From Agromyces larvae (GTDB taxonomy: Bacteria; Actinomycetota; Actinomycetes; Actinomycetales; Microbacteriaceae), in contig NZ_CP094528.1 of assembly GCF_022811705.1 (NCBI RefSeq), positions 3,410,001 through 3,474,000 of the forward strand: a stretch of DNA of 64,000 nucleotides, read 5' to 3'. Each line of letters opens with the position of its first letter. Position 1 is the first letter of the stretch. Position numbers and translations under genes: made by a program. Below the pieces are notes generated by a model. That model did not search any database, was not told the origin of the DNA, and was given only the letters and a program-made list of their open reading frames with translations. Shown here piece after piece: positions 31,174 to 47,661 of this stretch.

Positions 31174-31246
31174 GCGCCCGTAGCTCAATGGATAGAGCAT
31201 CTGACTACGGATCAGAAGGTTGGGGGTTCGAGTCCCTCCGGGCGCG
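31174..31246 (+). tRNA. tRNA-Arg(ACG), attachment site of the prophage
   Basis: A 73-nt cloverleaf with acceptor stem GCGCCCG / CGGGCGC, D-arm AGCTCAATGGATAGAGC, anticodon loop CTACGGA giving ACG (inosine at the wobble position, reading CGU/CGC/CGA), and T-arm GGGGGTTCGAGTCCCTC. The discriminator is G and CCA is not encoded. The 3' half from the second anticodon base on is part of the phage-supplied att core, so the gene stays functional in the lysogen. Confidence 0.98.
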
Positions 31247-31507
31247 CGAGATAGCGGCTCCAGTTTCGACTGGGGCCGCTTCGTCGTTAACGCCGAACCG
31301 CAGCCACTCGTAGGGCACGTCGAGGACGACCGAGAGCGCGAGAGCGCTTCGCTTGTCCATCGGCGAGCGACCGGTTGTCAGGTTCGTGATCGTGTTCCGG
31401 GCGACTTCGAGTTCGTCGGCAAGTTCGCCAACCCCGATGCCTCTCACCTGCATCACCTTCCGCAGCCGATCTCCGGCCTGGAAGGTCATCTCTTCGACGA
31501 TGGTCAT
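31205..31507 (-). CDS. Phage immunity repressor (XRE type), 3' end formed by attL
   Basis: A 100-residue helix-turn-helix protein (residues about 9-75; VGELADELEVARNTITNL is the DNA-binding helix pair). The last 13 codons, RARRDSNPQPSDP, are the antisense of the tRNA-Arg att core, and the stop TAG lies just beyond the core in host DNA. In the circular phage the frame would continue 23 codons (EPIGLVAMLWLALTIQ...) to 47590, giving 123 residues. I chose ATG 31507 because the ATG at 31546 would place the operator 31519-31535 inside the gene. The TATTGT within that operator is the likely -10 box, implying autoregulation. Confidence 0.8.
   Translation of the reverse strand: MTIVEEMTFQAGDRLRKVMQVRGIGVGELADELEVARNTITNLTTGRSPMDKRSALALSVVLDVPYEWLRFGVNDEAAPVETGAAISRARRDSNPQPSDP
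31208..31247. other. attL core (40 bp)
   Basis: Identical base for base to 47662-47701; the flanking bases differ on both sides (A/C left, G/A right). It spans the tRNA-Arg 3' half from the anticodon, and also encodes the last 13 codons of the repressor on the opposite strand. Confidence 0.95.
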
Positions 31508-31518
31508 GTCGTCATCTT

Positions 31519-31535
31519 CGCACAATAGTTGTGCG
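31519..31535. promoter_or_regulatory. Operator 1 of the prophage switch
   Basis: A perfect 17-bp palindrome CGCACAA-TAG-TTGTGCG just upstream of the repressor start. It shares the pattern YGCRCAA-N3-TTGYGCR with operator 2 and overlaps the likely repressor -10 box. Confidence 0.75.
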
Positions 31536-31589
31536 ACACGCCGCATTCAATCCCAGGCAACGTGCCGCGTGGTCTCGATGGTTGGGCCA

Positions 31590-31606
31590 TGCGCAACCGT
31601 TGCGCA
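31590..31606. promoter_or_regulatory. Operator 2 of the prophage switch
   Basis: A perfect 17-bp palindrome TGCGCAA-CCG-TTGCGCA, 16 nt before the first rightward early gene and 71 bp (centre to centre) from operator 1. Binding here would block rightward lytic transcription. Confidence 0.75.
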
Positions 31607-31622
31607 ATCCAAAGGGGTTGAA

Positions 31623-31886
31623 ATGGCAAAGCAGATTGTGGTTCTCCAGCGTGGCTGGGTCGTCGTCGGTGACGTGAAGCTCGGGGAGTCGCTCGACGAG
31701 CTCGTGATCGAGGACGCGGCGGTCATCCGGCGCTGGGGTACGACGAAGGGTCTCGGCGAGCTCGTCGACGGGCCGACGGAGTCGACGGTTCTCGACAAGG
31801 CCGGCACGGTGCGGGTGCACCCGCTCGCGGTCGTGCTGTCGATCGACGTGAACGAGGCGAAGTGGACTCCGGCGGCGACGGCGTGA
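31623..31886 (+). CDS. Phage early protein, unknown function (DUF6948-like)
   Basis: An 87-residue small beta-rich protein, MAKQIVVLQRGWVVVGDV..., followed by VIRRWGTTKGLGEL and a hydrophobic end VVLSIDV. I recall similar short proteins near the switch region of actinobacteriophages and plasmids (DUF6948), without a known activity. AAAGGGG lies before ATG 31623. As the first rightward gene after the operators it occupies the place of cro, but it shows no helix-turn-helix. Confidence 0.75.
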   Translation: MAKQIVVLQRGWVVVGDVKLGESLDELVIEDAAVIRRWGTTKGLGELVDGPTESTVLDKAGTVRVHPLAVVLSIDVNEAKWTPAATA

Positions 31887-32131
31887 CGTTCGCCGTGCAG
31901 TCGGGCGACGTTCGCCCGTCGGCGCTGTCGCTCGTCGAGGTCGGTCACCGCCTGGTGATGGATCGCGGCGACGGCTACGGCTACGGCTACGGCGACGGCG
32001 ACGGCTACGGCTACGGCTACGGCTACGGCTACGGCGACGGCGACGGCGACGGCTACGGCGACGGCGACGGCGACGGCTACGGCTACGGCTACGGCTACGG
32101 CTACGGCGACGGCGACGGCTACGGCTACTGA
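31883..32131 (+). CDS. Gly-Tyr/Gly-Asp repeat protein
   Basis: An 82-residue protein. A 28-residue N-terminal part (VTFAVQSGDVRPSALSL...) is followed by 27 consecutive Gly-Asp or Gly-Tyr dipeptides to the C-terminus. GTG 31883 overlaps the previous stop (GTGA). Every Gly is GGC and every Asp/Tyr is GAC/TAC, so the tract is a pure 6-bp repeat with a single variable base. The alternating acidic/aromatic pattern suggests a flexible, possibly condensate-prone or adhesive tail. Function is unknown. Short Gly-Tyr-Asp proteins occur in other actinophages (from memory). Confidence 0.7.
   Translation: MTFAVQSGDVRPSALSLVEVGHRLVMDRGDGYGYGYGDGDGYGYGYGYGYGDGDGDGYGDGDGDGYGYGYGYGYGDGDGYGY
31967..32128 (+). 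repeat. 27 x 6-bp GGC(G/T)AC tandem tract
   Basis: 162 bp of perfect hexamers differing only at position four (G or T), coding for Gly-Asp or Gly-Tyr. Slippage would change protein length in steps of two residues without frameshift. Confidence 0.95.
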
Positions 32132-32193
32132 TCCTCGCGGCCCGGTCGCTGACGCTGGCGACCGGGCCGCCCTGCTCTTGGAGAACACACCAA

Positions 32194-32892
32194 ATGACCA
32201 TCGACAGCGACGGCGAGCTGATCCGCGATCGGCTCTGGTTCGAAGACGGGTTCGTGACGGTTCCGAACTCGTGGGCGCGTGATCCGATGATCACGCACCA
32301 GGCGCGCGGCCTGCTGCTGCAGATCACGAGCCACAAGCCCGGGTTCCAGGTCTCGATCCGAGCCCTGGTCAGCGGCGCTATCAACGGCCGCGACGCGATC
32401 CAGGCGCAACTCAACGAACTCATCCGGGCCGGGTACATCGTGCGCGAGGAGCGCCGTGTGCACGGCATGAAGCGCTACCGCTACCGCCTCTGCGACCCGC
32501 ATGCGCCTGTGGATAACTCCGGTCAGGCATCGTTCGACCTCGACACGATGGCCGACGAAAACCCCAGGTCGGCCCCACGTCCGGGTTTTCAGGACACGGA
32601 AAACCCGGACACGGAAAACCAGATCCTGAAAACCCGGACACTTAAGAAGAACTATCTAAAGAACACTTCTACTGGTTCTGTTCCAGAGGTAACCACAGAG
32701 CAGCCTGTGGATAACTCGCCGGAGTCGGCTGGCGTTCAAGGCGATGCGGAGGCGCAAAGCGCCACTCCCTCCGACGCGCTCCCAGCCGAATGGGCGTGCC
32801 CGAGGCGGCGCGGCACCCAGCCGCACGTCTGGCTTGAATCCGGGTACTGCCGCGACTGCGGCACCCGCGTCCCCGAGGTGGTGCACGCGTGA
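32194..32892 (+). CDS. Probable phage replication initiator (winged helix, C-terminal zinc-type motif)
   Basis: A 232-residue protein. Residues about 10-100 form a winged helix-turn-helix (HQARGLLLQITSHKPGFQVSIRAL, then LNELIRAGYIVREERR and a wing), as in DnaD/RepA-type phage initiators. The middle is a disordered linker. The C-terminus has CPRRRG...YCRDCG, a possible zinc knuckle. The linker is encoded by iteron-like repeats and an AT-rich stretch (32556-32675), the arrangement of lambda O with its internal origin. GGAGAA precedes the ATG. It is the only replication-type gene in the prophage. Confidence 0.65.
   Translation: MTIDSDGELIRDRLWFEDGFVTVPNSWARDPMITHQARGLLLQITSHKPGFQVSIRALVSGAINGRDAIQAQLNELIRAGYIVREERRVHGMKRYRYRLCDPHAPVDNSGQASFDLDTMADENPRSAPRPGFQDTENPDTENQILKTRTLKKNYLKNTSTGSVPEVTTEQPVDNSPESAGVQGDAEAQSATPSDALPAEWACPRRRGTQPHVWLESGYCRDCGTRVPEVVHA
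32556..32675. other. Candidate phage replication origin inside the initiator gene
   Basis: Five iteron-like boxes on the consensus TGAAAACCCGGAC: GAAAACCCCAG at 32556, an inverted exact box at 32579-32591, direct boxes at 32599-32612 and 32627-32640, and a partial box at 32613-32620. They are followed by the AT-rich stretch 32641-32675, the most AT-rich segment of the prophage and a plausible unwinding element. Confidence 0.5.
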
Positions 32893-33029
32893 GTCGCCGA
32901 CGCACCACATGGCGTCCGGTGCGCGAGCCGTTCGAGTCGCCTACCGCTCAGGCCGCGTTCATCGCGACCGGCACCCTCATCGCCGTGCTCCTCGCGGCAT
33001 CCGTTCTCGCATGGCTGGGAGGCATCTGA
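32889..33029 (+). CDS. Small phage membrane protein (46 aa)
   Basis: A 46-residue product starting at GTG 32889 in a 4-nt overlap with the initiator gene and ending in a TGATG overlap with the next gene. A basic start (VSRRRTTWRPVREP) precedes one membrane helix at about 22-43. Its tight coupling on both sides and G/C-rich third positions support translation. Function is unknown. Confidence 0.6.
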   Translation: MSRRRTTWRPVREPFESPTAQAAFIATGTLIAVLLAASVLAWLGGI

Positions 33030-33373
33030 TGACGAAGACCCGCAAGTGGCGCGTCGAGCGCGCAGGCGCACCGACCGGAGGCTTCCTCCGGGGGTGGCTC
33101 GCGACGAGCGGCGACGGCGTCGGCGCGTACTTCACGACGTGGCCCGAAGCGATCGACTTCGCCACGAGGCAGGCCGACGAGGCCTTCGCCCGTGAGATGC
33201 ACGCAGCAGCAGCAGCAGCAGCAGCAGTGACGACCCTCGTGCGCCGCGAGCTCGCGCTCACCGGCATCGCATGCCGGTATGACCTGCACAAGCTCTGCAC
33301 CCTCACCACATGTGACTGCGACTGCCACCGTGCCGTGACCAGCGGCCCCGAGATCGAGGAGACCGCAGCATGA
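33029..33373 (+). CDS. Phage protein with Ala tract and Cys/His end, unknown function
   Basis: A 114-residue protein. The N-terminal WRVERAGAP and WLATSGDGVGAYFTTWPEAIDFATRQADEAF resemble small nucleic-acid-associated phage proteins. Eight consecutive Ala codons are read from a (CAG)n run near 33200. The end CRYDLHKLCTLTTCDCDCH has five Cys and two His, a probable metal site. It starts in a TGATG overlap. Function cannot be assigned. Confidence 0.7.
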   Translation: MTKTRKWRVERAGAPTGGFLRGWLATSGDGVGAYFTTWPEAIDFATRQADEAFAREMHAAAAAAAAVTTLVRRELALTGIACRYDLHKLCTLTTCDCDCHRAVTSGPEIEETAA

Positions 33374-33387
33374 TGACGCTCGACGAG

Positions 33388-33585
33388 CTACCGCCCCTCG
33401 TTCTGCTCCCACCAAGCCTTGGTGCGTGGTTGCTCTACGGCGTCGTGGTGTTCCGAGAGCGACGCGCGGCGCGGGCGATCGTGGTCGCGCAGCGCGTGGA
33501 GCACGCCGAGGCGGATCACGAGGTAGAGGGCGAGGAGACCGAGCACAAGCCCGACGATCCAGCCGAGGATCAGCATGATGTCCAT
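33388..33585 (-). CDS. Antisense small membrane protein, probably expressed from the prophage
   Basis: A 65-residue protein on the strand opposite to the lytic genes: one long membrane helix (MDIMLILGWIVGLVLGLLAL) followed by a charged cytoplasmic tail ending WWEQNEGR. TACCAT at 33592-33597 (minus strand) ends 6 nt before the ATG, the same leaderless pattern as at host genes such as 20845. Third positions are strongly G/C in this frame. A gene oriented like the repressor and carrying its own host-type promoter could be a lysogenic-conversion or superinfection-exclusion factor. The opposing plus-strand frame 33370-33606 is the competing reading. Confidence 0.55.
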   Translation of the reverse strand: MDIMLILGWIVGLVLGLLALYLVIRLGVLHALRDHDRPRRASLSEHHDAVEQPRTKAWWEQNEGR

Positions 33586-33602
33586 GCCCGGATGGTAGCG
33601 CC

Positions 33603-33899
33603 ATGAGCCAGCACCACCGTCGCACGAAGCACACGACCCACGCGCCGAAGGTCCGCGAGCAGATCGCCGCCCGCCTCCCGCTCCCGTGCGTCGAGTGCGG
33701 CCATCCGGTCCATGCCGAGCAGTCGTGGCATGTGGCACACATCGTGCCGGCATCCCAGGGTGGACGCACCACGATCAGCAACTGCGGCCCCGCGCACAGC
33801 ATCTGCAACCTCAAGTCGGGCGGGCGCATGGGCGCGGCCGTCACGAACCGACGCCGTCGGGCGGTCCGCGACTCGGGCGAAGGGATCAGGAAATGGTGA
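33603..33899 (+). CDS. Phage HNH endonuclease
   Basis: A 98-residue HNH protein: CVEC zinc pair near residue 30, His-rich catalytic segment WHVAHIVPASQGG, Asn in SNCGPAHSICN and the second zinc pair in C..H..C. HNH proteins beside the large terminase take part in DNA packaging cleavage in many HK97-like phages. Its stop overlaps the terminase start. Confidence 0.9.
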   Translation: MSQHHRRTKHTTHAPKVREQIAARLPLPCVECGHPVHAEQSWHVAHIVPASQGGRTTISNCGPAHSICNLKSGGRMGAAVTNRRRRAVRDSGEGIRKW

Positions 33900-35578
33900 G
33901 CGCGACTCCGGTTTTTGAGGACGGCTCCCGAACCTCCGCCTACGGCAGCAAGGAATTCTCTCTCGAATTGTGGGATCGCGTCCGAAACCGCGGAATCGCG
34001 CCCACGTTCGCCGGCCCCCTCTCGGATGACCCCGAACTTCGCCTCGAGTTCCTCGTCGGGGCCCGGGACTTCGGCTTCGAGCTCGTCGACCTCGACGATG
34101 AAGCCGAAGTCGCACGCCTTCGGGCGATGTCGCCGCCGAGATTCCCGTTGCAGCCGCAACAGCTGCTCATCGCGGACGCGCTGAACGCCGCCGTCGACGA
34201 GGCCGCGATCGAGATCGTGCGTCGCGGCTCGAAGACGACGAGCATCATGATCTGGTGTCATGGCCGATGCAAGTGCCGGCCCGGATACCAGGTCACGTTC
34301 TCCGCGCAGTCGGGCGTGAAGGGCTCCGCCCGTCTTCGGGAGTGGAAGACGCGCCTCGACGCCGTCACCCCGCCCGATGACCAGGACCTGCCGCCGTGGC
34401 TCCGGAACCGTGGCCCGCGACAGACCCGGCAGCAGACGCGCGCGGCCACCCTGTTCGACATCGAGCTACCACGCGACGAACCGACTCGACGTGGGTTCAA
34501 GATCATGCTCGGCGAGGTCGGGAAGGGCATCTACTACGAGAACGGGTCGACGTTCCTCGTCCTCAAGCCCGACGCGGAGGCGTACCGCGGCGAGGCCGGC
34601 GACGTGTCATGGATCGACGAGATGCAGGAGCTCGACCCCGAGGCCGGCGCCGACCTCATGGCCGGCCTCGTCCCGCTCCAAGACACGAAGGAGGGCGGTC
34701 TAATCGTGTGCTCGGGCACCGCCGGCGAGGCCCGCGTCGGCCCGTTCTGGGAGCGCGTCGAACGCCTCCGACGCGGCGACGGCATCGGCGGCCTCGACTT
34801 CTGCGCCCCCGAGGACACGCCGTGGGAGCTTGTCGAGGACGAAGAGCGCGCGATGGAACTTCTCCAGACGGTGCACCCGGGCATCGGGACGCTCACCACG
34901 CTCGAGAAGATGCGCAAGAACTGGCACAAGCTCGACAAGCCGAAGTGGGCACGCGAGTACCTCTCGCTGTGGCCCGAGACGTTCGGTGTCCGCGCTGTGC
35001 CGGCCGAGCAGTGGGCCGACGCGGCGATGTCGCGGCGGGTCCCGATCCCGCAGCGTGTCGCGTTCGGCATGGCGATCAAGCCCGGCGGCGGCGTCGCGGC
35101 GATCGTCGCCGCATGGCGCAACGCGAAGGGCGTCGCGTACATCGAGGTCGTCGAGCACCGCTCCGGAACTGCGTGGATGCCCGAGCGCGCCGCCGAGCTC
35201 ACGACCAAGTACCGCGGCTCGACGATCGCCTACGACGACATCGCCGAGGGCAAGGCCACCGCAACCGAGATGCTCACCCTGCCGCGCCGGCCGAGACTGC
35301 GGATGCAGACGTACCGCGAGACCGCGGCGGGCTGTGTCCAGATCCTCCGCGACCTCGAGCGCGGCAAGCTCCGCCACTTCGACCAGACCGGGCTGAACGC
35401 GGCCGCCGCGCGCGCCGCGAAACGTGAGACACGCAACGACCAGGGTGTGTGGCTGTGGACACCGGCCGAACGCGGCGAGGACATCACCTGCCTCGACGCC
35501 GCCACCCGGGCACTGCGCAACTGGGACCAGCACTTCGGCACCCGCCGAGCATCGACAGGAGTAGTGATCGCAGCATGA
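33893..35578 (+). CDS. Phage terminase large subunit
   Basis: A 561-residue packaging motor and nuclease. The ATPase part has a deviant Walker A RRGSKTTS near residue 108, a Walker B region DVSWIDEMQ at about 237-245 and a coupling segment VCSGTAGEA near 278. The RNase H-like nuclease part follows, with YDDIAEGKATATEML near residue 445. ATG 33893 overlaps the HNH gene. AGGGATCAGGA stands upstream. No small subunit is recognisable; the HNH protein or the 68-residue protein downstream might take that place. Confidence 0.9.
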   Translation: MVSATPVFEDGSRTSAYGSKEFSLELWDRVRNRGIAPTFAGPLSDDPELRLEFLVGARDFGFELVDLDDEAEVARLRAMSPPRFPLQPQQLLIADALNAAVDEAAIEIVRRGSKTTSIMIWCHGRCKCRPGYQVTFSAQSGVKGSARLREWKTRLDAVTPPDDQDLPPWLRNRGPRQTRQQTRAATLFDIELPRDEPTRRGFKIMLGEVGKGIYYENGSTFLVLKPDAEAYRGEAGDVSWIDEMQELDPEAGADLMAGLVPLQDTKEGGLIVCSGTAGEARVGPFWERVERLRRGDGIGGLDFCAPEDTPWELVEDEERAMELLQTVHPGIGTLTTLEKMRKNWHKLDKPKWAREYLSLWPETFGVRAVPAEQWADAAMSRRVPIPQRVAFGMAIKPGGGVAAIVAAWRNAKGVAYIEVVEHRSGTAWMPERAAELTTKYRGSTIAYDDIAEGKATATEMLTLPRRPRLRMQTYRETAAGCVQILRDLERGKLRHFDQTGLNAAAARAAKRETRNDQGVWLWTPAERGEDITCLDAATRALRNWDQHFGTRRASTGVVIAA

Positions 35579-35781
35579 CCGTCCGCCACGACAAGAGCAC
35601 CACCTCGATCGTCACGACGTGCACCGAATGCCCGTACTGGTACGCGTTCAATTTCGAGGCCGAGCTCGCCGAAGCCGCCGCGATCCGGCACAAGATGACA
35701 GTGCACGACATGCCCGAAGCGAAGGCTCGGAAGGCCGAGCGCGAACGCGCACGTCGGATGCGACACGCCGCCGCAGTCTGA
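35575..35781 (+). CDS. Small phage protein with Cys pair
   Basis: A 68-residue protein in an ATGA overlap with the terminase gene. It has one CTEC pair (residues 16-19) near aromatic residues PYWYAF, then a charged helix rich in Lys/Arg/Glu. It could be a half zinc finger or a packaging accessory. I do not recognise the family. Confidence 0.65.
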   Translation: MTVRHDKSTTSIVTTCTECPYWYAFNFEAELAEAAAIRHKMTVHDMPEAKARKAERERARRMRHAAAV

Positions 35782-35812
35782 AACGTGGTCGATTCTGCGG
35801 AGCATTCTTCCC

Positions 35813-36877
35813 GTGGGAATCTTCAACGGCTTTCGTTTCGCATCCGGTGTAGCCGGCTCGAACGTCGTGCCGTTCCCGAAGCGCCCGTCGATGGGCATCG
35901 TCTCGCCGTGGACGGACAACACCGGCGTGCTGGAGCAGCTCGTCGCGAAAGACATCCTCGGCGTGACTCTCCCGACTGTGACTCGTGCGCAGGCGATGAA
36001 GGTGCCGGCCGTCGTGAAGGCGCGCGCGCTCCTGCACGCGGTCATCGCGACCCGGCCTCTCCGCGCCTACCGCGGCGATGAGCTCCGCCCCGAGCCCGAG
36101 CAGCCGACGTGGCTCTACCGCTCGGACTCGTACATCGCGCCTCGGCTCCGCACGAAGCTGATCCTCGACGACCTGATCTTCGACGAGGCATCCCTGCTCC
36201 GGGTGACGCGCGGCGCCGAGAACGCGATCCTCGACGCAGTCCACGTCGACTACTCGCGCTGGGAGGTCGACGAGACCGGCATCATCTCGATCGACAAGCA
36301 GCCCGTCGACCGCGACGAAGTGATCTGGATTCCCGGCCCCGGCCCCGGCCTACGCCGGATCGCGGCCGACACGATCGACGCCGCCCTCTCGACCGAGGCC
36401 GCGTGGAAGCAGCGCGTGCGCAACCCGTTCCCCGCGATGGTCATCTTCCAGGAAGAGGACGTGCAGCTCGAACCCGAAGAGGTCAAAGACATGGTCGACT
36501 CCGTCGCCGCTGCACGCCGCAGCATCGACGCGGCGGTCATGTTCGTGCCGTACGGGAACCGGATCGAGTCGCACGCGGCCGACACCACCGACCTGTTCGA
36601 GTCGGGCCGCAACGCGATCCGCATCGACTTCGCGAACTTCTTCAACATGCCGACCGCGCTCCTCGACGGATCGGTCGCCGAGGCATCCCTGACGTACTCG
36701 ACGCAGGAAGGCCGCCGCAACGACTTCCTCGACCTCACCGTGCCGTACTGGTCCGGCCCCATCGAGGATGCCCTCTCGCTCGACAACGTCGTCCCGCGCG
36801 GGCAGCGCGTTCGGTTCGACTTCTCCGACCTCATCACGCCGACCGCGTCCCCGGCCGGCCCCACCGTGGAGGATTGA
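35813..36877 (+). CDS. Phage portal protein (HK97-like, short)
   Basis: A 354-residue portal, forming the dodecameric DNA gate of the head. Family features are the start AMKVPAVVKARALLHAVIATRPLRAYRG, the stem/wing segment AADTIDAALSTEAAWKQRVRNPFPAMVI and the helix near FANFFNMPTALLDGSVAEASLTYSTQEG. GTG 35813 has GGAG about 10 nt upstream. At 354 residues it is shorter than typical 400-500-residue portals, in line with the compact genome. Confidence 0.9.
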   Translation: MGIFNGFRFASGVAGSNVVPFPKRPSMGIVSPWTDNTGVLEQLVAKDILGVTLPTVTRAQAMKVPAVVKARALLHAVIATRPLRAYRGDELRPEPEQPTWLYRSDSYIAPRLRTKLILDDLIFDEASLLRVTRGAENAILDAVHVDYSRWEVDETGIISIDKQPVDRDEVIWIPGPGPGLRRIAADTIDAALSTEAAWKQRVRNPFPAMVIFQEEDVQLEPEEVKDMVDSVAAARRSIDAAVMFVPYGNRIESHAADTTDLFESGRNAIRIDFANFFNMPTALLDGSVAEASLTYSTQEGRRNDFLDLTVPYWSGPIEDALSLDNVVPRGQRVRFDFSDLITPTASPAGPTVED

Positions 36878-36879
36878 CC

Positions 36880-38682
36880 ATGACCGACAACCTGATCGAG
36901 TTCGAGGGCGGCGATGTGCTCGCCAACCTCGACGAGCGCACCATCACCGGTCTGCTCATCCCGTTCGGCGAGGAAGGCCGCACGAACATCGGCCGGTTCC
37001 AGGTCGAGGCATCCGCCGTCGCCCTGCCCGCCGACCCGGCCGTCGTCGGCATCAACCGCGACCACATCCGCTCCGACGTCGTCGGCCGTGCCGTGCGCAT
37101 CTGGGAAGAGCCCCGCGGCGTCATGGCGTCGTTCAAGATCGCAAACACCCCCGAGGGCGACGCCGCCCTCGCCGACCCCACCCGGCGCAAGCTGTCCGCC
37201 GAGTTCGGGCCTGCCGTCATCAAGGCAGGCCGACTCGTCGCCGGACACGCGAAGCTCTGGGGCGCCGCGCTCGTCCCGGCCGGCGCGTTCCCGTCCGCGC
37301 AGGTGCTCGCCGCCGACACCGACACGGTCGAGGTCGAAGGGTACGAGCGGCCCGCGCACACCGAGAGCTCGTCGAGCTACTCGTCGAGCTTGGACAACGG
37401 CCACGAGTACGCCGACGAGACGACCACCGTCGAAGACATCGAAGACCTCGGCGACGGCAAGAAGCGCATCACCCGCACGGTCACCACCGTGACGGAGATC
37501 ACCGAACCTGCATCCGCCCCGGATGAGGACAACACCGAAGGAGAGTCCACCGTGACCGACACGAACACCGAGGTGCTCGCCGGGGCGCAGCCCCGACCCG
37601 TCGCGCAGGCCGCTGGCCTCATCGCGACGACCCCCGCGACCGCCTCGCCCCGCCCCACCGAAGCCCGCCAGGTCTTCGCCGCGATCGCCGCTCTGAAGGC
37701 GAACCCGTTCGACCGAGACGCCGAGCAGGTGCTCGCCGCCCTCGCCGACGTGAACGTCAGCGGCAACGGCTCGCTCCCGACCGGCGCGAACGGCACCGCC
37801 TCGGTCATCCCGCCCAACTGGGTCGGGCAGCTGTACCAGGGCATCGAGTACACGCGCGAGTACATCCACCTGATGACGCTCGGCACCGACATCACCCTCA
37901 CCGGCAAGAAGGGCTATGGCCTCTTCCGCCGCGCCGCGACGACCGGCACCACCGAGATGGCGCTCGCAGCGACCGGATCCGGCTCGGGCACGTGGGCCGG
38001 CAACAAGACCGAGCTCCCGTCGCACTCCGGCTTCACCGCGCCGAAGACCTCGTCGCTTCGCCGGTTCGCGCGCGGCAACGACTTCGCCCGCGAATGGGTC
38101 GACCTGCCCGGCGGCGAGGAGATGGTCGAGTCCTACATCCGCCTCCTCATCGAGGAGCACGCGTACTGGTCCGACCAGAACGCCTTGGCGGACATCGTCA
38201 CCGCCGCCGGCACGCCCGTCGCACCCGCGACCGCCCTGTTCCCCGACGACTACCCCGACGCGCTCGGCATGCTCATCCAGGGCATCCTGGCCGTCAAGAA
38301 GCGCAAGCCGAACAACCAGCGCCGCGACACCCCCACGTTCGCGATCGCGAACGAGGTCGCGTTCGCGCAGCTGGTCTACGCGGCCGGCGGCGACCAGAAC
38401 CTCCCCGCGTTCGTCAACATCGCCGTCTCCTCCGACCGCACCGGCACGGTCGACGGCACCGTCACCGTCGTGCAGGGCGAGACGGGCATCGACGACACCG
38501 CCTCGGTCATCGTCGGCGACAAGCGCGCGATCGAGTTCGACGAGCTCCCCGGCGGCCCGCTCCGCATCGACGCCCTCGAACTCGCCAAGGGCGGCATCGA
38601 CCGGGCCGTGCACGGCTACCTCCAGACCTTCGAGGTTCGCCCCGAGGCCGTCGTCCTCGTCGGCACCGCCGACGAGGCGTAA
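36880..38682 (+). CDS. Fused prohead protease and HK97-type major capsid protein
   Basis: A 600-residue polyprotein. Residues about 10-150 are an HK97-family prohead protease with catalytic His62 (NRDHIRSD) and Ser105 (KLSAEFGPA). A Ser/Glu/Thr-rich linker (about 155-225) may act as scaffold. Residues about 265-600 are the major capsid protein (VIPPNWVGQLYQGIEYTREYIHLM start, DALELAKGGIDRAVHGYLQTFEVRPEAV end). There is no stop or frameshift between the parts. A downstream internal start such as GTG/ATG near 37550 cannot be excluded. Confidence 0.92.
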   Translation: MTDNLIEFEGGDVLANLDERTITGLLIPFGEEGRTNIGRFQVEASAVALPADPAVVGINRDHIRSDVVGRAVRIWEEPRGVMASFKIANTPEGDAALADPTRRKLSAEFGPAVIKAGRLVAGHAKLWGAALVPAGAFPSAQVLAADTDTVEVEGYERPAHTESSSSYSSSLDNGHEYADETTTVEDIEDLGDGKKRITRTVTTVTEITEPASAPDEDNTEGESTVTDTNTEVLAGAQPRPVAQAAGLIATTPATASPRPTEARQVFAAIAALKANPFDRDAEQVLAALADVNVSGNGSLPTGANGTASVIPPNWVGQLYQGIEYTREYIHLMTLGTDITLTGKKGYGLFRRAATTGTTEMALAATGSGSGTWAGNKTELPSHSGFTAPKTSSLRRFARGNDFAREWVDLPGGEEMVESYIRLLIEEHAYWSDQNALADIVTAAGTPVAPATALFPDDYPDALGMLIQGILAVKKRKPNNQRRDTPTFAIANEVAFAQLVYAAGGDQNLPAFVNIAVSSDRTGTVDGTVTVVQGETGIDDTASVIVGDKRAIEFDELPGGPLRIDALELAKGGIDRAVHGYLQTFEVRPEAVVLVGTADEA

Positions 38683-38757
38683 CCCCCCGAACTCCGGGGC
38701 CGCGCGCGTAACCCCACACGCGCGGCCCCGGAACCCAACCAGAAGGGAGGCGATGAC

Positions 38758-39360
38758 GTGGCCTTCTACATCGGGGACGCCCCCGCACAGCCGTTCGTGA
38801 TCGAACCTCCCGACACGATCGACCTCGACGAGTTCGACACCGTCACCGCCGTGCTCGTCGACCCTGCGGGCGGCACCGAAACGATGGAATCACTCTTCGA
38901 CGAAGAGGCCGGCGCGATCCTCGTCGACATCGACGCACCCCTCAACCTGGAGGGCATCTACCGGCTCCGGCTCGTGCTCGACGGTGACGGCGGCGTGAGG
39001 ATGCTCCCCGAGATTCGGCTCGTCGTCCAGGACCCCGACAGCAAGTGGCACACCCTCGACACCGCTCGCGCCGAATGGGCCGACGCCGAACACCTCGCAG
39101 ACCCGGTGCTGTACGAGCTCCTCGAGGTCGCCAAGGGCGAGGTGCTCGAGTTCGCCCCGGCCCTCGCCGAGGACGCCCCGGTCCCGATCCGATACCGGAA
39201 GGGGCAGCTGATGCAGGCCCGCAACATCCTGAACGCGGCCGGCGTCGACCCATCCACCGGCGACGACGGTGCCGGATCGTTCGTGATCCGCCCGTTCCCC
39301 CTGGACTGGCAGGTGAAGCAGACGCTTCGCCCCAAGCACGGAATCCCGGTGTTCGGATGA
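38758..39360 (+). CDS. Head-tail connector protein
   Basis: A 200-residue protein. The N-terminal half is a beta-rich domain (MAFYIGDAPAQPFVIEPP...). The C-terminal half, starting DTARAEWADAEHLADPVLYELLEVAKGEVLEFAP, is the helical head-completion module of HK97 gp6-like proteins. AGGGAGG lies 7 nt before GTG 38758. Position after the capsid and overlap with the next gene support a neck role. Confidence 0.75.
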   Translation: MAFYIGDAPAQPFVIEPPDTIDLDEFDTVTAVLVDPAGGTETMESLFDEEAGAILVDIDAPLNLEGIYRLRLVLDGDGGVRMLPEIRLVVQDPDSKWHTLDTARAEWADAEHLADPVLYELLEVAKGEVLEFAPALAEDAPVPIRYRKGQLMQARNILNAAGVDPSTGDDGAGSFVIRPFPLDWQVKQTLRPKHGIPVFG

Positions 39361-39725
39361 CCGCCCCCCGCACCGTGCTCGCCGCATCGCTCAAGCCGAT
39401 CCTCCCGAAGTCGTGGGCGATCGTCGAAAGCGCCCGCACCGTCGACGACATCCCGACCACCGTCGTCCAGATCATCCAGCGCACCATCACCCGGCTCCCG
39501 GCCGCGCCGATCGGACGCCACTTCGTCGGGATGACGCTCATGATCAGCGTTCCCGAGCAGTCGATGAAGCACGCAGAAGACACCCTCGACGAGCAGGTCG
39601 ACGACTTCATCCACGCGCTCGACAGCATCGGCATCGCATGGTCGAACGCCGAGAAGGTGCAGACCAAGGGCTCCAAGCGCATCGCCTACCAGATCACCGT
39701 CAACGTCATCTCGAACAAGGAGTAG
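39357..39725 (+). CDS. Head-tail joining/tail terminator-like protein
   Basis: A 122-residue protein starting in an ATGA overlap. SWAIVESARTVDDIPTTVVQI and DDFIHALDSIGIAWSNAEKV fit the alpha/beta fold of tail-terminator (gpU-like) proteins that cap the tail tube. Placement between connector and tail tube supports this. Sequence alone is not decisive. Confidence 0.65.
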   Translation: MTAPRTVLAASLKPILPKSWAIVESARTVDDIPTTVVQIIQRTITRLPAAPIGRHFVGMTLMISVPEQSMKHAEDTLDEQVDDFIHALDSIGIAWSNAEKVQTKGSKRIAYQITVNVISNKE

Positions 39726-39727
39726 AA

Positions 39728-40150
39728 ATGGCTTCCGTCGATGTCAACCCGTTCCTCATGAAGGACTGCCTCTTCCAGGTCGAGGCAGACCAGTACGAGG
39801 CGCACGTTTCCCAGGTGCAGTTCTCGCCCACGTCGCAAACCGTGACGTGGAAGGGACTCACCCCGGCCGCCGTGTTCAGCTTCGGCACCGCAGCGACGTG
39901 GGTCGCGAACCTCACGTTCGCGCAGGACTGGTCCACAGCCGACTCGCTCTCGCGCTACCTGTACGAGCACGAGGGCGAAGAGATCGACGTGACCTTCGAG
40001 CCCGTGGCAGGCGGCCCCGGCGTGACGGCGACCCTCATCGTCGCGCCCGGCGCGATCGGCGGGCAGGTCGACCAGGTCGCTACCGCGCAGGTCTCGCTCG
40101 GCGTGAAGGGTAAGCCGGTGCTCGACCCCATCGTCGATCCGGAACCCTGA
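39728..40150 (+). CDS. Major tail protein (tail tube)
   Basis: A 140-residue beta-rich protein. MASVDVNPFLMKDCLFQV, SFGTAATWVANLTFAQDW and the end TATLIVAPGAIGG...VATAQVSLGVKGKP are typical of siphophage tube subunits. It lies between neck genes and the tape measure. It starts 2 nt after the preceding stop. Confidence 0.8.
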   Translation: MASVDVNPFLMKDCLFQVEADQYEAHVSQVQFSPTSQTVTWKGLTPAAVFSFGTAATWVANLTFAQDWSTADSLSRYLYEHEGEEIDVTFEPVAGGPGVTATLIVAPGAIGGQVDQVATAQVSLGVKGKPVLDPIVDPEP

Positions 40151-40668
40151 TGGCCCCCAGGAGCCGGCACGGCATCGTGAGCGCAGAGGCCGCCGCCGAC
40201 CTCCAAGCCGTCACTCGCGCCGTCCGGGCCGCTCCTGCGGAACTCGCTCGGCTCCTCGACGCGACCGCCCGCGAGCAACTCTCGGGCGTCTGGGGTGAGG
40301 AACTCGGGAAGCGGCCCGCGAGCGGCGCGCAGCAGAAGTTCGTGCTCGCCGAGGCCGAGGCGATCCCGAACGCCGCCGGCCTCACCGTCACGACCGGCGA
40401 CGACTGGGGGCACAACGCACCGTTGCCCCGGATCTACGAGTTCGGCACGAAGAACCGCGACAAGACCACGACCTACCGGCGCCGCATCCCCGGCACCCGA
40501 CGCACCACGTCCGTGACCCGACGCACTCGCCGTCAGCTTCCCGAACGGCGGGCACAGGGCTGGATTGCGTACCCGGCCGCGAACGCGACCGGAGCCCGCG
40601 TGTTCCGCATGTGGGCCCAACTCGTGCACAAGGTCACCCACGACTGGATGGAGGGAAAGCTTGGCTGA
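40150..40668 (+). CDS. Tail assembly protein, HK97 gp10-like
   Basis: A 172-residue basic protein starting in a TGATG overlap. LQAVTRAVRAAPAELARLLDA (helix) followed by PLPRIYEFGTKNRDKTTTYRR and the Arg-rich stretch are typical of gp10-like neck/tail-completion proteins. Its place after the tube gene is where tail chaperones usually lie, but there is no slippery site or frameshift extension. Confidence 0.6.
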   Translation: MAPRSRHGIVSAEAAADLQAVTRAVRAAPAELARLLDATAREQLSGVWGEELGKRPASGAQQKFVLAEAEAIPNAAGLTVTTGDDWGHNAPLPRIYEFGTKNRDKTTTYRRRIPGTRRTTSVTRRTRRQLPERRAQGWIAYPAANATGARVFRMWAQLVHKVTHDWMEGKLG

Positions 40669-41896
40669 CATCACCGTCAACCTCCGCGCCGACCCGACCG
40701 CGTTCGACGCGGGCGTGAAGCAGGCCGAGCAGGCCATCGACGAGTGGGAGGCCTCCTCCGGTGACTCCGCCGAGGTCGTCGCACGCAAGCTCGAGGAGGT
40801 CATCCGTGCGGTCGTGAAGCTCGGCACCCAGTCGGGCAAGACCAAAGACGACATGGTTCGCGACCTGCGCAACTTCGGCCTGTCTGCCGAGGACGCCGAA
40901 CGTGCAGTGCACGCCGTCTGGGATGAGATGGGTGAGGGGCAGCGCGCCGCCCGCGAGGTCGAGAAGGCCGCCACCGCGTACGAGGAAGTCGAAGAGAAGG
41001 CTGACGGTGCGGCCGACGCCGCGAAGGCGGTCGGTGACGAGTCGGAGAAGACCGGCACCAAGGTCGAATCCCTCGGCGATATCGCGAAGTCCGTGCTCGA
41101 GGGCGACTTCGGCGGCGCGGCCGAGTCCGCGATCGGTGCACTCTCCGCGCTCGGCCTGTTCGCCGGCGCGGGTGGCGCGCTCGCGGCCGCGATCGGCGAG
41201 GGCATCTCGGGCATCGTCGGCAACTGGGTCGAGTCGTGGGACGACGCCGCGAAGGAGTCTGAGCAGCGTGTGTCTCGCATGTTCGACGCGATGCTCGAGT
41301 CGGGCAACAAGTACCTCCAGGCCGACTTCATCTCGAAGGAAGTCGCCCGACTCGCCGACGACACCGATTCGTGGAACGAGGCGCAAAAGCGCGCGCAGGA
41401 TACAGGCCTCGAAATCGGGACTGTGCTCCGCGCGATGGCGGGCGATCAGTCGGCGATCTCGGCAACTCAAGACGAGCTCAACCGGAAGCGGCAAGAAGAG
41501 CTCGACCTGATCGACCGGTCGAGCAAGGCCGGCGAGGAGCGCGCGGCGGCGATCGACGCCGTGAATCTGGAGTACGCAGAGACGACGGACTGGCTCCGAC
41601 AGATTCAAGCTGACACCGACACTGCCGCTGAGAAGACGAAGGCCGTGCAGGGTGCCGTGGAGCAGGTCACCCGGAAGGAGGCCGAGAGCGCGCAGCGGGG
41701 CAAGGATGCGATCGCTGAGCGCGGGAAGGCGCTCGAGGAGTACTACAAGAAGGCCGCGAGCCCTCCTGAGGTTCGTGTCCCTGTCACCGCCGACACGTCT
41801 GCCGTTGACCGCGAGCTCGAGGCGCTCCGCCGGCGCGCGGCGAGCATCGACCTGACCGTGACGGTGAACCAGCGCCGTGGGACCCAGGTGATCTAA
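40661..41896 (+). CDS. Tail tape measure protein (short)
   Basis: A 411-residue, mostly helical coiled-coil protein with a central hydrophobic segment ESAIGALSALGLFAGAGGALAAAIGEGISG (about 160-190), as in tape measures. The TTG start at 40661 is supported by GGAGGG about 6 nt upstream, an 8-nt overlap with the previous gene and the sensible start (L/M)ADITVNLRADPTAFDAGVK. At about 0.15 nm per residue the tail would be about 60 nm long, short for a siphophage. Confidence 0.85.
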   Translation: MADITVNLRADPTAFDAGVKQAEQAIDEWEASSGDSAEVVARKLEEVIRAVVKLGTQSGKTKDDMVRDLRNFGLSAEDAERAVHAVWDEMGEGQRAAREVEKAATAYEEVEEKADGAADAAKAVGDESEKTGTKVESLGDIAKSVLEGDFGGAAESAIGALSALGLFAGAGGALAAAIGEGISGIVGNWVESWDDAAKESEQRVSRMFDAMLESGNKYLQADFISKEVARLADDTDSWNEAQKRAQDTGLEIGTVLRAMAGDQSAISATQDELNRKRQEELDLIDRSSKAGEERAAAIDAVNLEYAETTDWLRQIQADTDTAAEKTKAVQGAVEQVTRKEAESAQRGKDAIAERGKALEEYYKKAASPPEVRVPVTADTSAVDRELEALRRRAASIDLTVTVNQRRGTQVI

Positions 41897-42249
41897 TGGC
41901 GATCCTCACGAACGGCACCGACACCATCACCCCCGACCTCATCGACGGGTACGAGTCGACGAGCGAGGCGCGCAACGTCGTGCACCCGATCCTTGGCAGC
42001 GAGGACGTGGACGTTGTGCTTCGCCCCGCGACCCTCCCGACCGGGACGATGGTCCTCGTCATGGGCAACGAGGCGAGCGCCGCCGCCGCCGAGGACGCCC
42101 TCAGGGGCGCTCACGTGTGGAGCCTCGTCACCGACCGGGGCACTGTCGACATGTCGTTCATCGTCGCCGAGCGCATCACACGCACCCTCGACCGCGACAC
42201 GCGCGACGTGTGGCTCGTCAGCTTCGGGTGGCAGGAGGTCGACGCGTGA
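41896..42249 (+). CDS. Distal tail-like protein
   Basis: A 117-residue beta-rich protein, MAILTNGTDTITPDLIDGY..., ending VWLVSFGWQEVDA. It starts at a 1-nt overlap (TAATG) with the tape measure gene. The position directly after the tape measure and the fold-like pattern fit a distal tail/baseplate hub adaptor. Confidence 0.65.
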   Translation: MAILTNGTDTITPDLIDGYESTSEARNVVHPILGSEDVDVVLRPATLPTGTMVLVMGNEASAAAAEDALRGAHVWSLVTDRGTVDMSFIVAERITRTLDRDTRDVWLVSFGWQEVDA

Positions 42250-43955
42250 CGATCACCCGCGACGGCATCACGGCAACCCTCGACGGCACGACCGACCTCG
42301 GCCGCGTCGAGGGGCAGGCGACGCTCGATGAGTCGTGGGCTCCGCATGTGCAGGCCGAGCTCACGATCGCGCTGCCCGATGAGGCGACCCTGGAAGACCT
42401 CGACCCGCGCAGCGCGCACCGCGTCACGATCGCCGCGAGCGCGACCTACCCGGGCAGCTTCATCCCCGACCGATCGCGCAGCTTCGATCTGGGGCTCCGT
42501 GACCGGGTCATCGACCACGAGCGCGCCGAGGTGCGTCTCTCGCTGGCCTCGGATGAGGCGCTGCTCATGGATGACGTGCTCACCGACGACGAGCCCGACT
42601 ACAGCGCGACCCTGAATCAGGCATCGCTCCGCACGATCGTCGATGGGATGCTCGACCGCATCGGCGCATCCCTCGAACCCGGGAGCGCGGACGCGACCTT
42701 CTACGTCCTCGAAGACGCGACCAACCTGAACCCGAACCCCTCGATCGAGACGAACACGACCGGCTACACCGCCGGTGGCTGCGCGATGACCCGAGCGGCA
42801 GCGACGTTCGGCACTGGGGCATGGGCGCTCCAGCTTGTCGGCAACGGCACGGCCGACAGCTTCGCGACGATCGGCTCGGGCTTGATGGGGATGCAGGCGG
42901 GCAGGCGATACACGCTCGCGGCGACAGGGCGAGTCGTGACTGCGCTGTCGGGTGTCGCCGACACGAACGGCCGCGAACGCGGTCTGTACGTGGCCGTAAC
43001 AGCCGGGAGTACGACGACGTATCAGTCGGCGAAGCTGGCTAACGTCAACGGCACAACCGACCGCGTCTCGATCACATTCGACGTGCCAGCCGGTGTCACT
43101 GGGATCATTCTGCGCGCCTACCTCGGCCGTACTGCGGGAACGATCCAGTGGGACGACGTTACCCTCGTCGAAAACCGCGGTACCGTCGGCATCGACTACG
43201 AGGAATCCTTCAGCGGAGACACGGCCGACACGACCGACTACGGGTACACCTGGACGGGCACCCCCAACGCGAGCACCAGCGCCCGCATCGCGCTCGTCGA
43301 CCGATCGCCCGACCTGCTCGCCTGGCAGCCCGGAACCTCGGCGTGGAGCTTCTTGCAACCGTTGTTCCAGTCGGTCGGGCTCCGCCTCTTCTGCGACGAG
43401 CAGCGGAAGTGGTGGCTCGTGGACGGCTCCACGTTCGTCGCTGACGGCGTGCTGCAACTCACGATGCCGGGGAACCTCCACACCGCGACCGACACGACGA
43501 GCCGGGACGTTGAATGGCACGACGCGGCGGTCGTCCGCTACCGCTGGCGGGCACCTGACGGCACACAGCAGGAGCGCATCGACTCCTACGCCCCGCCCGG
43601 CTACACGAAGGTCAGGCTCTTCGAGCTCGAGCGCGCCTATCCTGGCCCCGGCTTCGCCGCCTACGCCGTCAAGCGGGCCGAAGGACGCGGCCGCACCGTC
43701 GACCTCGACGCCCTCGCCGACCTCACCGTGAAGCCCTCCCAGGTGCTCCGCGTGAACCTTCCCGACACCCCGGCCCTGCTCGGCGTCGTGCGCGCCGTCG
43801 TCTACGACCTCACGGCCGGCGCGATGCGCGTCGCTTCGCGTGGCCTCACCGACGTTCCCGACGGCTCGTGGCTCGTGCTCGGCTTCGCATCCGATGAGAC
43901 CTTCGCCGACCTCGCCGCCGACACACTCACGATCCTGGAGGACATCACCCCATGA
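42246..43955 (+). CDS. Minor tail protein with inserted carbohydrate-binding-like module
   Basis: A 569-residue tip protein starting in a GTGA overlap. The N-terminal part (residues 1-150) and C-terminal part (about 340-569, with DLLAWQPGTSAWSFLQPLFQSVGLRLFCDE) form a tail-hub-type scaffold. Residues about 155-310, beginning NLNPNPSIETNTTGYT and ending TIQWDDVTLVE, are a jelly-roll resembling CBM4/9 modules. They probably bind host wall sugars. The insertion looks modular, and codons in it are a little less G/C-biased than in the flanks. Confidence 0.75.
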   Translation: MTITRDGITATLDGTTDLGRVEGQATLDESWAPHVQAELTIALPDEATLEDLDPRSAHRVTIAASATYPGSFIPDRSRSFDLGLRDRVIDHERAEVRLSLASDEALLMDDVLTDDEPDYSATLNQASLRTIVDGMLDRIGASLEPGSADATFYVLEDATNLNPNPSIETNTTGYTAGGCAMTRAAATFGTGAWALQLVGNGTADSFATIGSGLMGMQAGRRYTLAATGRVVTALSGVADTNGRERGLYVAVTAGSTTTYQSAKLANVNGTTDRVSITFDVPAGVTGIILRAYLGRTAGTIQWDDVTLVENRGTVGIDYEESFSGDTADTTDYGYTWTGTPNASTSARIALVDRSPDLLAWQPGTSAWSFLQPLFQSVGLRLFCDEQRKWWLVDGSTFVADGVLQLTMPGNLHTATDTTSRDVEWHDAAVVRYRWRAPDGTQQERIDSYAPPGYTKVRLFELERAYPGPGFAAYAVKRAEGRGRTVDLDALADLTVKPSQVLRVNLPDTPALLGVVRAVVYDLTAGAMRVASRGLTDVPDGSWLVLGFASDETFADLAADTLTILEDITP

Positions 43956-44713
43956 GCGACCCCGTATGGTTCCCGACCGCCGGCGACGACGCAGCGTCGG
44001 CAGGCATGGACACAATGACCGGCCTGGAGAAGCGCAAGGACGTGTGGCGGTGGATCAACCACGCCCTCGACTACATCGCCCAGCGCACGAGCGCGATCCT
44101 CAGCATCGCGATGGGCGGCACCGGCGCCAGCACCGCGGCAGGCGCGCGCACGAACCTCGACGTGCCGAGCACTGGCGACCTCACCGCCGGGCTCGCCGGA
44201 AAGGCGAACACTTCGCACACGCACTCGTACCCGCAGATCGGCCCCGGCGCGATCAACAACGGCGGCTTCGGGCTCACGGTGGGCGCCGCGAACATCACCG
44301 GGAATCTCACCAACTTGCCCGGCCGGAACACGCCGGTCACATCCTCCTACGTGTCTGCCTACTTCAACGCCGACGGGCGGCTCGGCGCCGATCCCTCCGC
44401 CGCGCGGTTCAAGCAAGACATCGACGCGCACGGGTACACCCTCGACCAGCTACTCGCGATCAACATCGTCACCTACCGGCTCCGTGCCGCCGTCGACGAG
44501 CTCGGCGACGAAGCGGACACCCTCGTCGGTGTCATCGCCGAGCAGCTGGTCGACGCGGGCCTCGCCGAGTTCGTGAACTTCGACCCGGACGGCGAACCAT
44601 TCAACGTCGCCTACGAGCGACTCGCGCTCGTCGCGATCGGCGCGCTCCAAGACCTCGCGCGCCGATTCGACGATTTCGAGGCCCGCCTCTCCGCCCTCGA
44701 AGGAGCAGCATGA
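43952..44713 (+). CDS. Tail fibre/tip protein with S74-type chaperone end
   Basis: A 253-residue protein overlapping the previous stop (ATGA). The segment AMGGTGASTAAGARTNL is a classic fibre repeat. The C-terminus, ADPSAARFKQDIDAHGYTLDQLLAINIVTYRLR then GVIAEQLVDAGLAEFVNFDPDGEPFNVAYERLALVAIGAL, matches the intramolecular chaperone (peptidase S74) that trimerises the fibre and is cut off at a Ser. It is the likely receptor-binding component. Confidence 0.8.
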   Translation: MSDPVWFPTAGDDAASAGMDTMTGLEKRKDVWRWINHALDYIAQRTSAILSIAMGGTGASTAAGARTNLDVPSTGDLTAGLAGKANTSHTHSYPQIGPGAINNGGFGLTVGAANITGNLTNLPGRNTPVTSSYVSAYFNADGRLGADPSAARFKQDIDAHGYTLDQLLAINIVTYRLRAAVDELGDEADTLVGVIAEQLVDAGLAEFVNFDPDGEPFNVAYERLALVAIGALQDLARRFDDFEARLSALEGAA

Positions 44714-45366
44714 CGTACGAGAACGTGAACCGGTTCGTCGTCATCCTCGCGGACGACCGCGACCCCGACGTCTCATGGCAGCACCACCTCGACCGCGGCT
44801 CGGCCGGCGGTGTCGACTGCGTCGCCCCGATGCGCACCCCGGTCTACGCGCCCACCGACGGGCGACTCGACTCGGCATGGCTCGGAACCGGCGGCCTCAC
44901 CGCCCGACTCTGGCAGGCGGGAGGCTGGCGTGACGAGTTCATGCACATGGACCAGGTCGCCATCGCCGGCGACGTGAAGCAGGGCGACCTCATCGGCTAT
45001 TCGGGTCGCTCGGGCGGCGACTACGCGCCGCACGTGCACTGGCACCGAGTCGACTCGAAGGGCGCCCGCCGCAACCCCTGGCACTACTTCAGCTCGTCGC
45101 CCGCCGGCGGCGACACCACCCCCATCAAGGACACCCCGCAGGAGGACACCATGCGCATCTACTCGAACACTGACGAGGGCGGGGCCTGTTACCTGTTCTT
45201 CGATACCGGCTGGCAGCACATCTCCGACCCGCAGGAGGCGAAGCATCTCGCGCTCATGCTCAACGGCACGCCAGCCGCCACGAAGGTCAACGGTTACCAG
45301 ATCAACTGGTTGAAGAGTCGATGCGACCGCAACCGTGCCGCGCTCGTCAAGGCGCTCACGGCATGA
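44710..45366 (+). CDS. Endolysin, M23-type peptidase
   Basis: A 218-residue lysin. The M23/lysostaphin-like domain has the metal ligands in HHLDRGSAGGVDC (His26, Asp36) and HVH at 108-110. It cleaves peptide cross-bridges of the host wall. The C-terminal about 85 residues (after the GGDTTPIKDTP linker) are a small domain with WQHISDPQEAK, probably wall binding. It starts in an ATGA overlap and is followed directly by the holin-like gene. Confidence 0.88.
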   Translation: MTYENVNRFVVILADDRDPDVSWQHHLDRGSAGGVDCVAPMRTPVYAPTDGRLDSAWLGTGGLTARLWQAGGWRDEFMHMDQVAIAGDVKQGDLIGYSGRSGGDYAPHVHWHRVDSKGARRNPWHYFSSSPAGGDTTPIKDTPQEDTMRIYSNTDEGGACYLFFDTGWQHISDPQEAKHLALMLNGTPAATKVNGYQINWLKSRCDRNRAALVKALTA

Positions 45367-46852: not shown

Positions 46853-46854
46853 CC

Positions 46855-47597: not shown

Positions 47598-47661
47598 GAC
47601 GAGTTACCATCGACTGAATCGTCAGCGCCAGCCACAGCATCGCGACGAGCCCGATCGGCTC

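Follow-up and report, generated by a model that had tools for sequence, protein, structure and literature searches.

The small prophage in the Agromyces larvae window (the whole 64,000-nt stretch of DNA that was analyzed, to whose positions all coordinates refer) carries its phage attachment site inside its repressor gene. Taken as a whole, the system is best explained as an integration-dependent immunity switch, and this reading is likely because it combines the layout, the conservation of the repressor tail, and integrase and repressor relatives in phage clusters that use such a system. The architecture itself is well supported at the sequence level. Integration-dependent immunity is a known class; the variant with a hydrophobic, non-ssrA tail is new, and a role for attP as an immunity-swapping joint is plausible. 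The principle of integration as a switch would thus extend to prophages of the Microbacteriaceae.

The Prophage and Its Attachment Site

The prophage spans 31208..47701 and has a size of 16.4 kb. It is bounded by an exact 40-bp direct repeat, the att core, with the left junction (attL) at 31208..31247 and the right junction (attR) at 47662..47701; the identity of the two copies extends over exactly 40 bp. The attB target is the tRNA-Arg(ACG) gene located by ARAGORN at 31174..31247 (+), whose 3' part forms the core, and overlap of attB with a tRNA 3' end is a feature of integration-dependent immunity systems. A terminase, portal, major head protein, and tyrosine integrase recognized by PHROGs and Pfam, together with an HNH nuclease and a replication-initiator-like protein, mark the element as small and siphovirus-like. 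A tailless-virus capsid at 42117-43955, suggested by a weak Pfam match (E 0.032, below the cut-off), was dropped; the terminase, portal, and major head protein are of tailed-phage families. A megablast search with the prophage returned one phage and ten plasmid records, and the matches listed were tRNA-sized only.

A Repressor Gene That Crosses the Core

The repressor is read on the minus strand. From ATG 31507 its frame runs for 100 codons, antisense through the left core (31205..31507, -), and encodes an HTH body of ~86 aa followed by 13-14 core-encoded residues. The HTH is of the CI type (Phage_CI_repr, E 4.5e-6). The frame is closed by a TAG at 31205..31207 (-), which comes from the host tRNA gene, lies directly outside the core, and truncates the prophage form at attL. 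In the attP joined in silico, the core lies inside the repressor reading frame and 23 further codons follow (EPIGLVAMLWLALTIQSMVTRRG), giving a virion form of 123 aa in total. These codons occupy 47593..47661 (-) and end at the stop codon 47590..47592 (-); the tail region was characterized by attP joining and by shuffle, library, and codon comparisons. An earlier note on this DNA had described both the 100-residue frame with its stop in host DNA and the 23-codon extension, and its coordinates and lengths are correct. An alternative start, ATG 31546, lies 13 codons upstream and would lengthen the two forms to 113 and 136 aa. Either ATG could be the start, because candidate operator 1 (see below) falls between them. 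No close relative of the repressor head is encoded in the viral contigs searched.

Downstream on the same strand lies a tyrosine integrase of 294 aa (45968..46852, -; Phage_integrase, E 1.5e-14). Two Cys-rich ORFs separate it from the repressor tail: the small orf73 (47376..47597, -), which has no PHROGs or Pfam family match, and orf174 (46855..47379, -), which has no family match and whose close relatives are absent from the viral contigs searched. The predicted minus-strand order in the circular phage is repressor, core, tail, orf73, orf174, integrase, and integration parts the repressor head from everything beyond the core in this series. The stop codon of the virion form overlaps a possible GTG start of orf73 by 8 nt (GTGGCTGA), which hints at co-transcription of repressor and integrase. 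A consensus scan of 31100-31700 found no sigma-70-like promoter. The first divergent (early) ORF encodes 87 aa (31623..31886, +) and has no PHROGs or Pfam family match. Near this early region, at 31862-32131 (+), there is a short ORF of GY/GD dipeptide repeats (GYGYGDGDG...).

The Same Layout in Relatives

Relatives were collected by integrase search. Among 60 genomes of the genus (E 1e-30), five more loci were found, four in other genomes and a second in the window's own. Among 398 genomes of the family (E 1e-60), matches were found in eight genomes besides the window's own, two of which had already been found. One further locus lies on a GTDB contig. All 13 loci, the window included, were examined. 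Named from their protein records, the elements include G053 (Agromyces sp. G08B096) and G016 (Agromyces sp. S2-1-8), which share the genus of the window genome, as well as G122 (Microterricola gilva), G185 (Protaetiibacter larvae), and G396 (Agreia sp. VKM Ac-1783).

A direct repeat of 25-40 bp is present at 10 of the 13 loci, with one copy upstream of the integrase and the other 14.6-17.4 kb beyond the integrase start. All ten are at a tRNA-Arg(ACG) gene. The att-in-repressor layout, which the earlier note had thought worth seeking in related phages, is observed at nine of the 13 loci, again counting the window. In the nine antisense elements, the first base of the prophage-form stop falls in the range from 2 nt before to 0 nt after the end of the core. 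The tenth repeat-bearing element, G448 (Microbacteriaceae bacterium PS02068), has the tRNA inverted and on the integrase side, and its repressor reads the core in the sense direction. Its repressor ends at a TAG inside its own core copy; since the other copy has TGG (regions L046/L047), the host allele appears to supply the stop.

No att repeat was found at G404, G020, and G000b. G404 has a T-arm-like site upstream of the integrase, and the integrase matches of G020 and G000b lie within longer frames with several recombinase-like segments. In the window's own genome, G000:C1:1258486-1259310 (L014) is a long open frame that contains several recombinase-like segments and closes with an integrase-like part, 41% identical to the prophage integrase.

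Reading Frames through the tRNA

Repressor homologues were gathered by two profile searches. The first query lacked the core; the second included frame-A cores and scored only the 7995 candidates sharing most words with it. Together, the best 120 of 135 (E 1e-8) and the best 120 of 200 (E 1e-12) comprise 183 distinct homologues. Peptides encoded by the tRNA core, recognized by loose patterns, are present in 153 of the 183 listed, 118 in frame A, 24 in frame B, 1 in frame C, and 10 in the sense direction, with none recognized in the other 30; a somewhat different pattern set gave 148/183. In the first search, 92 of the best 120 of 135 carry a core peptide (A 59, B 23, C 0, sense 10). Of the 82 antisense-frame carriers among these, 48 terminate no more than 5 aa from the core and the other 34 are tailed.

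In every one of the nine antisense elements, frames A and B meet a stop between -10 and +5 nt relative to the core end. Frame C runs 48-363 nt past the core in seven of them and closes 27 nt before the core end in two. No probability is attached to the frame counts, because related sequences were counted and the second query contained frame-A cores. The frame choice among the listed homologues fits a need for a stop supplied by the tRNA. The layout suggests a reason for placing the site in the repressor: the stop would come from the tRNA, and phages may exchange immunity specificities at the joint.

The Hydrophobic Tail

By itself, the bare layout is weak evidence. A 23-codon tail seems unremarkable in GC-rich DNA, and of the three antisense frames through this tRNA end, two reach a stop no more than 7 nt from where the core ends. 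The comparisons are strong evidence: the recurrence of the layout at nine of 13 integrase loci, the match of the tail to that of G053, and its hydrophobicity. The tail is hydrophobic and ends in -VTRRG, and its 11-residue mean is 2.55 in the repressor frame and at most 1.11 in the other five. Of 2000 stop-free nucleotide shuffles, 0.35% are at least as hydrophobic (p 0.0035). The same test gives p < 0.01 in four of the nine antisense elements (the window, G323, G280, and G016), p 0.05-0.08 in G053, G122, and G396, and p 0.15-0.16 in G185 and G017; in G017 another frame is more hydrophobic than the repressor frame. With p < 0.01 in only four of nine, the hydrophobic tail is not universal.

The tail is also conserved. 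Its best match in a library of 79 tails is that of G053, with a score of 50 (LVAMLWLALTIQSMVTRR vs. LAGMLWLGLALRSIVSER), which none of 1000 shuffles reached anywhere in the library. The next tails, P0169 (...GLYLLLTIRNAMVTR), P0017 (...GLFLILALRQAVTR), and P0028, have p 0.002-0.003 each, uncorrected for the 79 comparisons. The block shared with G053 contains eight identical residues. The codons differ for all four Leu residues and are the same for Ser and Val; for Met and Trp no difference is possible. The core is read in frame B in the window and in frame A in G053, which gives unrelated core peptides (RARRDSNPQPSDP vs. VRPEGLEPPTF) followed by the same tail, so selection appears to keep the tail and not the core peptide. 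Judged by residues and codons, the tail is a real coding sequence, conserved at the protein level.

The C-terminus does not resemble a tmRNA tag. The host ssrA tag is ANKKQSDFALAA (-DFALAA), to which the window tail is dissimilar; the tail lacks an -AA or -LAA end, and the integrase ends in -SRTVAMH, with no ssrA-like tag. The unlikeness of the tail to the host tag, an integrase without the -AA of some integrases of the class, and the two ORFs between repressor and integrase count against the switch as the best explanation; so do the lack of a promoter match, tail hydrophobicity at p 0.01 or less in only four of nine elements, and the failure to see the window palindrome type (see below) upstream of the relatives' repressors. 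Among the 75 tail-bearing homologues of those listed, 29 end in Ala and 15 in Arg, and 26 of the 29 Ala-ended tails pass a loose rule of ssrA-likeness.

Twenty-four tails were labeled hydrophobic by hand. A cut of 1.9 on the 11-residue mean gave 27, from which hand labeling dropped P0049, P0068, P0143, and P0167 and to which it added P0028 (1.89). The last residue of these 24 is Arg in 9, every one of which comes from the protein database; it is Ser in 4, Ala in 3, and some other residue in 8. An Arg end was therefore rejected as the defining mark of the type; the window tail ends in Gly. A single origin was rejected as well. On a tree of 80 heads the type requires 15 changes, compared with 20.9 in shuffles (1/500 as low), and although the tree is poorly resolved (44/75 inner branches open), its starred branches force at least 4 changes. 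The type is thus clustered and not one clade. The earlier note had called the tail hydrophobic, which is right; by these comparisons of sequence, such a tail is moreover a recurrent type in the repressor family, though not universal.

In the AlphaFold model of the hydrophobic-tailed homologue P0033, the HTH has high confidence, the linker and core-encoded stretch have block means of 46-54, and the tail is a low-confidence helix (52-63). The tailed, virion-form repressor of P0033 is encoded on a chromosome-sized contig of 3,979,341 bases and may belong to a prophage that is in tandem, defective, or misjoined; a search of the 398 family genomes found no close copy. An FW(S/A)I(V/I) motif marks a second recurrent tail type, found in G185, G448, P0049, P0125, P0130, P0136, and P0174. 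A Cys-rich segment precedes the motif in some of these tails, and all seven end in Ala.

Comparison with Known Systems

The founding paper of integration-dependent immunity is reportedly that of Broussard et al. (2013). The best phage integrase matches listed are 41-46% identical to the window integrase; the closest include those of cluster G (BPs-type) mycobacteriophages, and the repressor matches repressors of cluster P phages. Clusters G, I, N, and P are reported to use integration-dependent immunity (PMC4557955). In BPs, the C-terminal tag is reported to cause degradation, and both repressor forms bind DNA similarly (PMC4557955). The cluster G phages BPs and Angel resemble the window prophage in having the attP core in a tRNA-Arg 3' end within the repressor gene, long virion and short prophage forms, and a tyrosine integrase downstream on the same strand (PMC4557955, PMC9262239). 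They differ in the tail, which has 33 residues in BPs. That of Angel also has 33, is polar, and ends in -KAS, with the repressor abutting the integrase, whereas the window has 23 hydrophobic residues ending in -TRRG and two ORFs in between.

Gordonia cluster CW (GRU3, GMA5, Jeanie, and McGonagall) consists of 17-kb temperate siphoviruses described as having integration-dependent immunity, and GMA5 likewise has an extra ORF between repressor and integrase (PMC5559632). Unlike the window prophage, these phages target tRNA-Lys, and the GRU3 repressor ends in Val-Thr-Ala-Ala. The Mycobacterium abscessus elements MabC/N/O/H have attP in the repressor and no -AA tag, and other degradation signals are presumed by the authors; BPs itself is among the repressors reported to lack such a tag, and in some M. 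abscessus prophages the integrase is 3-5 genes away (PMC8092301). The remark in the earlier note that the tail has no AA-type tag therefore stands, but as a contrast with known systems it is weaker than was supposed.

Two isolated phages, Barebow (Curtobacterium, 18.3 kb) and PensacolaC28 (Microbacterium, 16.7 kb), encode related integrases, each preceded by a repressor-like HTH gene. Barebow has a tRNA 3'-end-like core inside the HTH gene and differs in its polar tail ending in -RRAS. PensacolaC28 (L005:14315-14728) differs in that it seems, by eye, to read the tRNA in sense; the annotation splits its integrase into two pieces. Similar features are described for Bifidobacterium prophages (PMC6109161). 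Arthrobacter phage Galaxy is reported to have a similar gene order with attP outside the repressor (PMC5513430). The term integration-dependent is absent, by term count, from a survey of Microbacterium phages (PMC7302621). A literature search covering titles, abstract openings, and few subscription papers found no account of such a system in phages of Agromyces or Microbacterium and none of a class of hydrophobic tails.

Proposed Mechanism and Alternatives

As long as the phage is free, a promoter at ~31510-31620, between the divergent genes, would drive a leftward operon of the 123-aa repressor, orf73, orf174, and the integrase. At the repressor C-terminus, the last 23 residues would make up a hydrophobic segment, probably helical and attached through a flexible linker, that keeps the protein inactive, most likely through degradation by a non-ssrA degron. 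Int would recombine attP, inside the repressor gene, with the tRNA-Arg gene and so cut the tail codons and its own gene from the head. The tRNA gene would give a stop right after the core, and the resulting 100-residue repressor, presumed stable, would bind two palindromic operators and silence the early genes. Integration itself would set up immunity and take the integrase away from its promoter. By analogy with the known systems, the long form would be inactive and only the short form active. The recurrent non-ssrA-like tail type adds a direct lead to a protease or membrane partner.

The tail could instead be a membrane tether that holds the virion-form repressor at the membrane, away from its operators, until integration frees it, which is considered unlikely. 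The 19-residue Kyte-Doolittle mean of 1.65 for the window and 1.4-2.1 for 13 hand-picked hydrophobic tails, compared with -0.1 to 0.4 for BigNuz, Angel, and Barebow, is in line with such a tether, and the membrane insertion sums are borderline (+0.76 for the window). Against it, the hydrophobic run is short and only marginally membrane-like, and the mechanism reported for BPs is proteolysis (PMC4557955). Other tails of the family are polar, acidic, or Cys-rich, so tethering cannot serve as the general mechanism. A non-ssrA degron is tentatively favored over a tether because tail types vary and the layout is constant.

It is distinctly improbable that the tail is an activator or oligomerization element that gives the long form a separate role in early infection, e.g., activation of its own promoter. 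A modest rise in Prep activity is described by the authors for the stabilized long form of BPs (PMC4557955), but tail types differ greatly between similar heads, a pattern more in keeping with interchangeable inactivation signals than with a specific contact.

Least probable of the alternatives is chance read-through, with a repressor that ends functionally before the core, neutral core and tail residues, and tail conservation that reflects integrase-binding DNA: the core-encoded residues are tRNA antisense and of low confidence in the P0033 model, two of three frames stop near the core regardless, and tail hydrophobicity is not significant at p 0.01 in 5/9 elements, but the window/G053 tail is conserved in amino acids despite its differing Leu codons and core frames, hydrophobicity in the window is limited to the repressor frame, and frame C is nearly unused (1/183 listed homologues; 0/82 in the first search).

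Candidate Operators

Two palindromes are observed beside the repressor start. Candidate operator 1, GCACAATAGTTGTGC, is at 31520..31534, and candidate operator 2, GCGCAACCGTTGCGC, is at 31591..31605. Their shared motif, GCRCAANNNTTGYGC, has 2 exact sites in the 64 kb, and 2 sites occurred in 0/100 shuffles. Short CACA/TGTG palindromes lie upstream of the repressor in G122 (TTCACATTGTGAA) and G396 (TCCACAATGTGGA). The window palindrome type is not among the inverted repeats listed upstream of the repressors of the nine relatives, and the operators were rejected as a family feature.

Possible Exchange of Heads and Tails at attP

With attP in the repressor, a phage would carry two exchangeable cassettes, a head that sets operator specificity and a tail plus integrase that govern inactivation and integration. 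If co-infecting or tandem phages recombined at the core, probably through Int, a new immunity specificity would arise in one step, and inactivation tails, the hydrophobic type included, would be interchangeable modules. This proposal is tentative and somewhat short of an even chance. Exchange at the core would be possible because the ten prophages share one tRNA target. In tandem prophages, repressors are reported to use different frames of one core, and an in-frame fusion would inactivate the repressor; head exchange is not proposed in the passages of that source consulted here (PMC9934374).

Comparison of 82 heads and tails gave examples of both kinds of mismatch. Tails are shared between different heads in P0138/P0164 (tail similarity 0.97, heads 33% identical), L065/L066 (1.0, 39%), P0049/P0179 (0.88, 44%), and G280/P0121 (0.80, 42%). 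Similar heads carry different tails in P0122/P0168 (heads 86%, tail 0.21), G122/P0121 (82%, 0.13), and G185/P0037 (84%, 0.13). In some pairs, e.g., P0174/P0175, head and tail are both alike.

Tails would be expected to track integrases, because the two sit together on one side of attP. A Mantel test of 26 elements did not support this linkage (tail-integrase rho 0.11, p 0.15; body-integrase rho 0.28, p 0.02). The set held 31 elements before near-identical integrases were removed and drew on 21 of the 27 loci with a repressor-like match, excluding L064 (no core), L005, L134, and the near-copies L111-L113. Among the ten prophages alone, the values were 0.10 (p 0.21) for tail-integrase and 0.05 (p 0.32) for body-integrase, and integrase and head identity are uncorrelated (rho 0.03, 45 pairs). 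Since the Mantel test gave no support, the case for shuffling rests on the individual head/tail pairs and one DNA breakpoint.

The breakpoint is seen in two viral contigs. L065:3452-8272 and L066:152-4972 are 99.96% identical over 4,821 bp, starting within a few bp of the core, and have no comparable alignment upstream of it, where L066 has only ~150 bp. The pair is a candidate case of immunity heads swapped at attP; a junction between tandem prophages, or an assembly joined at the core, could look alike.

The integrase and tail of the window prophage are closest to those of the G053 prophage, which has a 71% identical integrase, a homologous hydrophobic tail, and the same tRNA-Arg(ACG) target. 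G053 differs in its core frame (A, with B in the window) and in its head, which is only 42% identical, and it has no match to the window terminase, portal, or head protein at E 1e-4. These three window proteins match G396, PensacolaC28, and G448 better than G053. The gene order of G053 is also more compact than that of the window, with the tail stop and the integrase match 4 nt apart.
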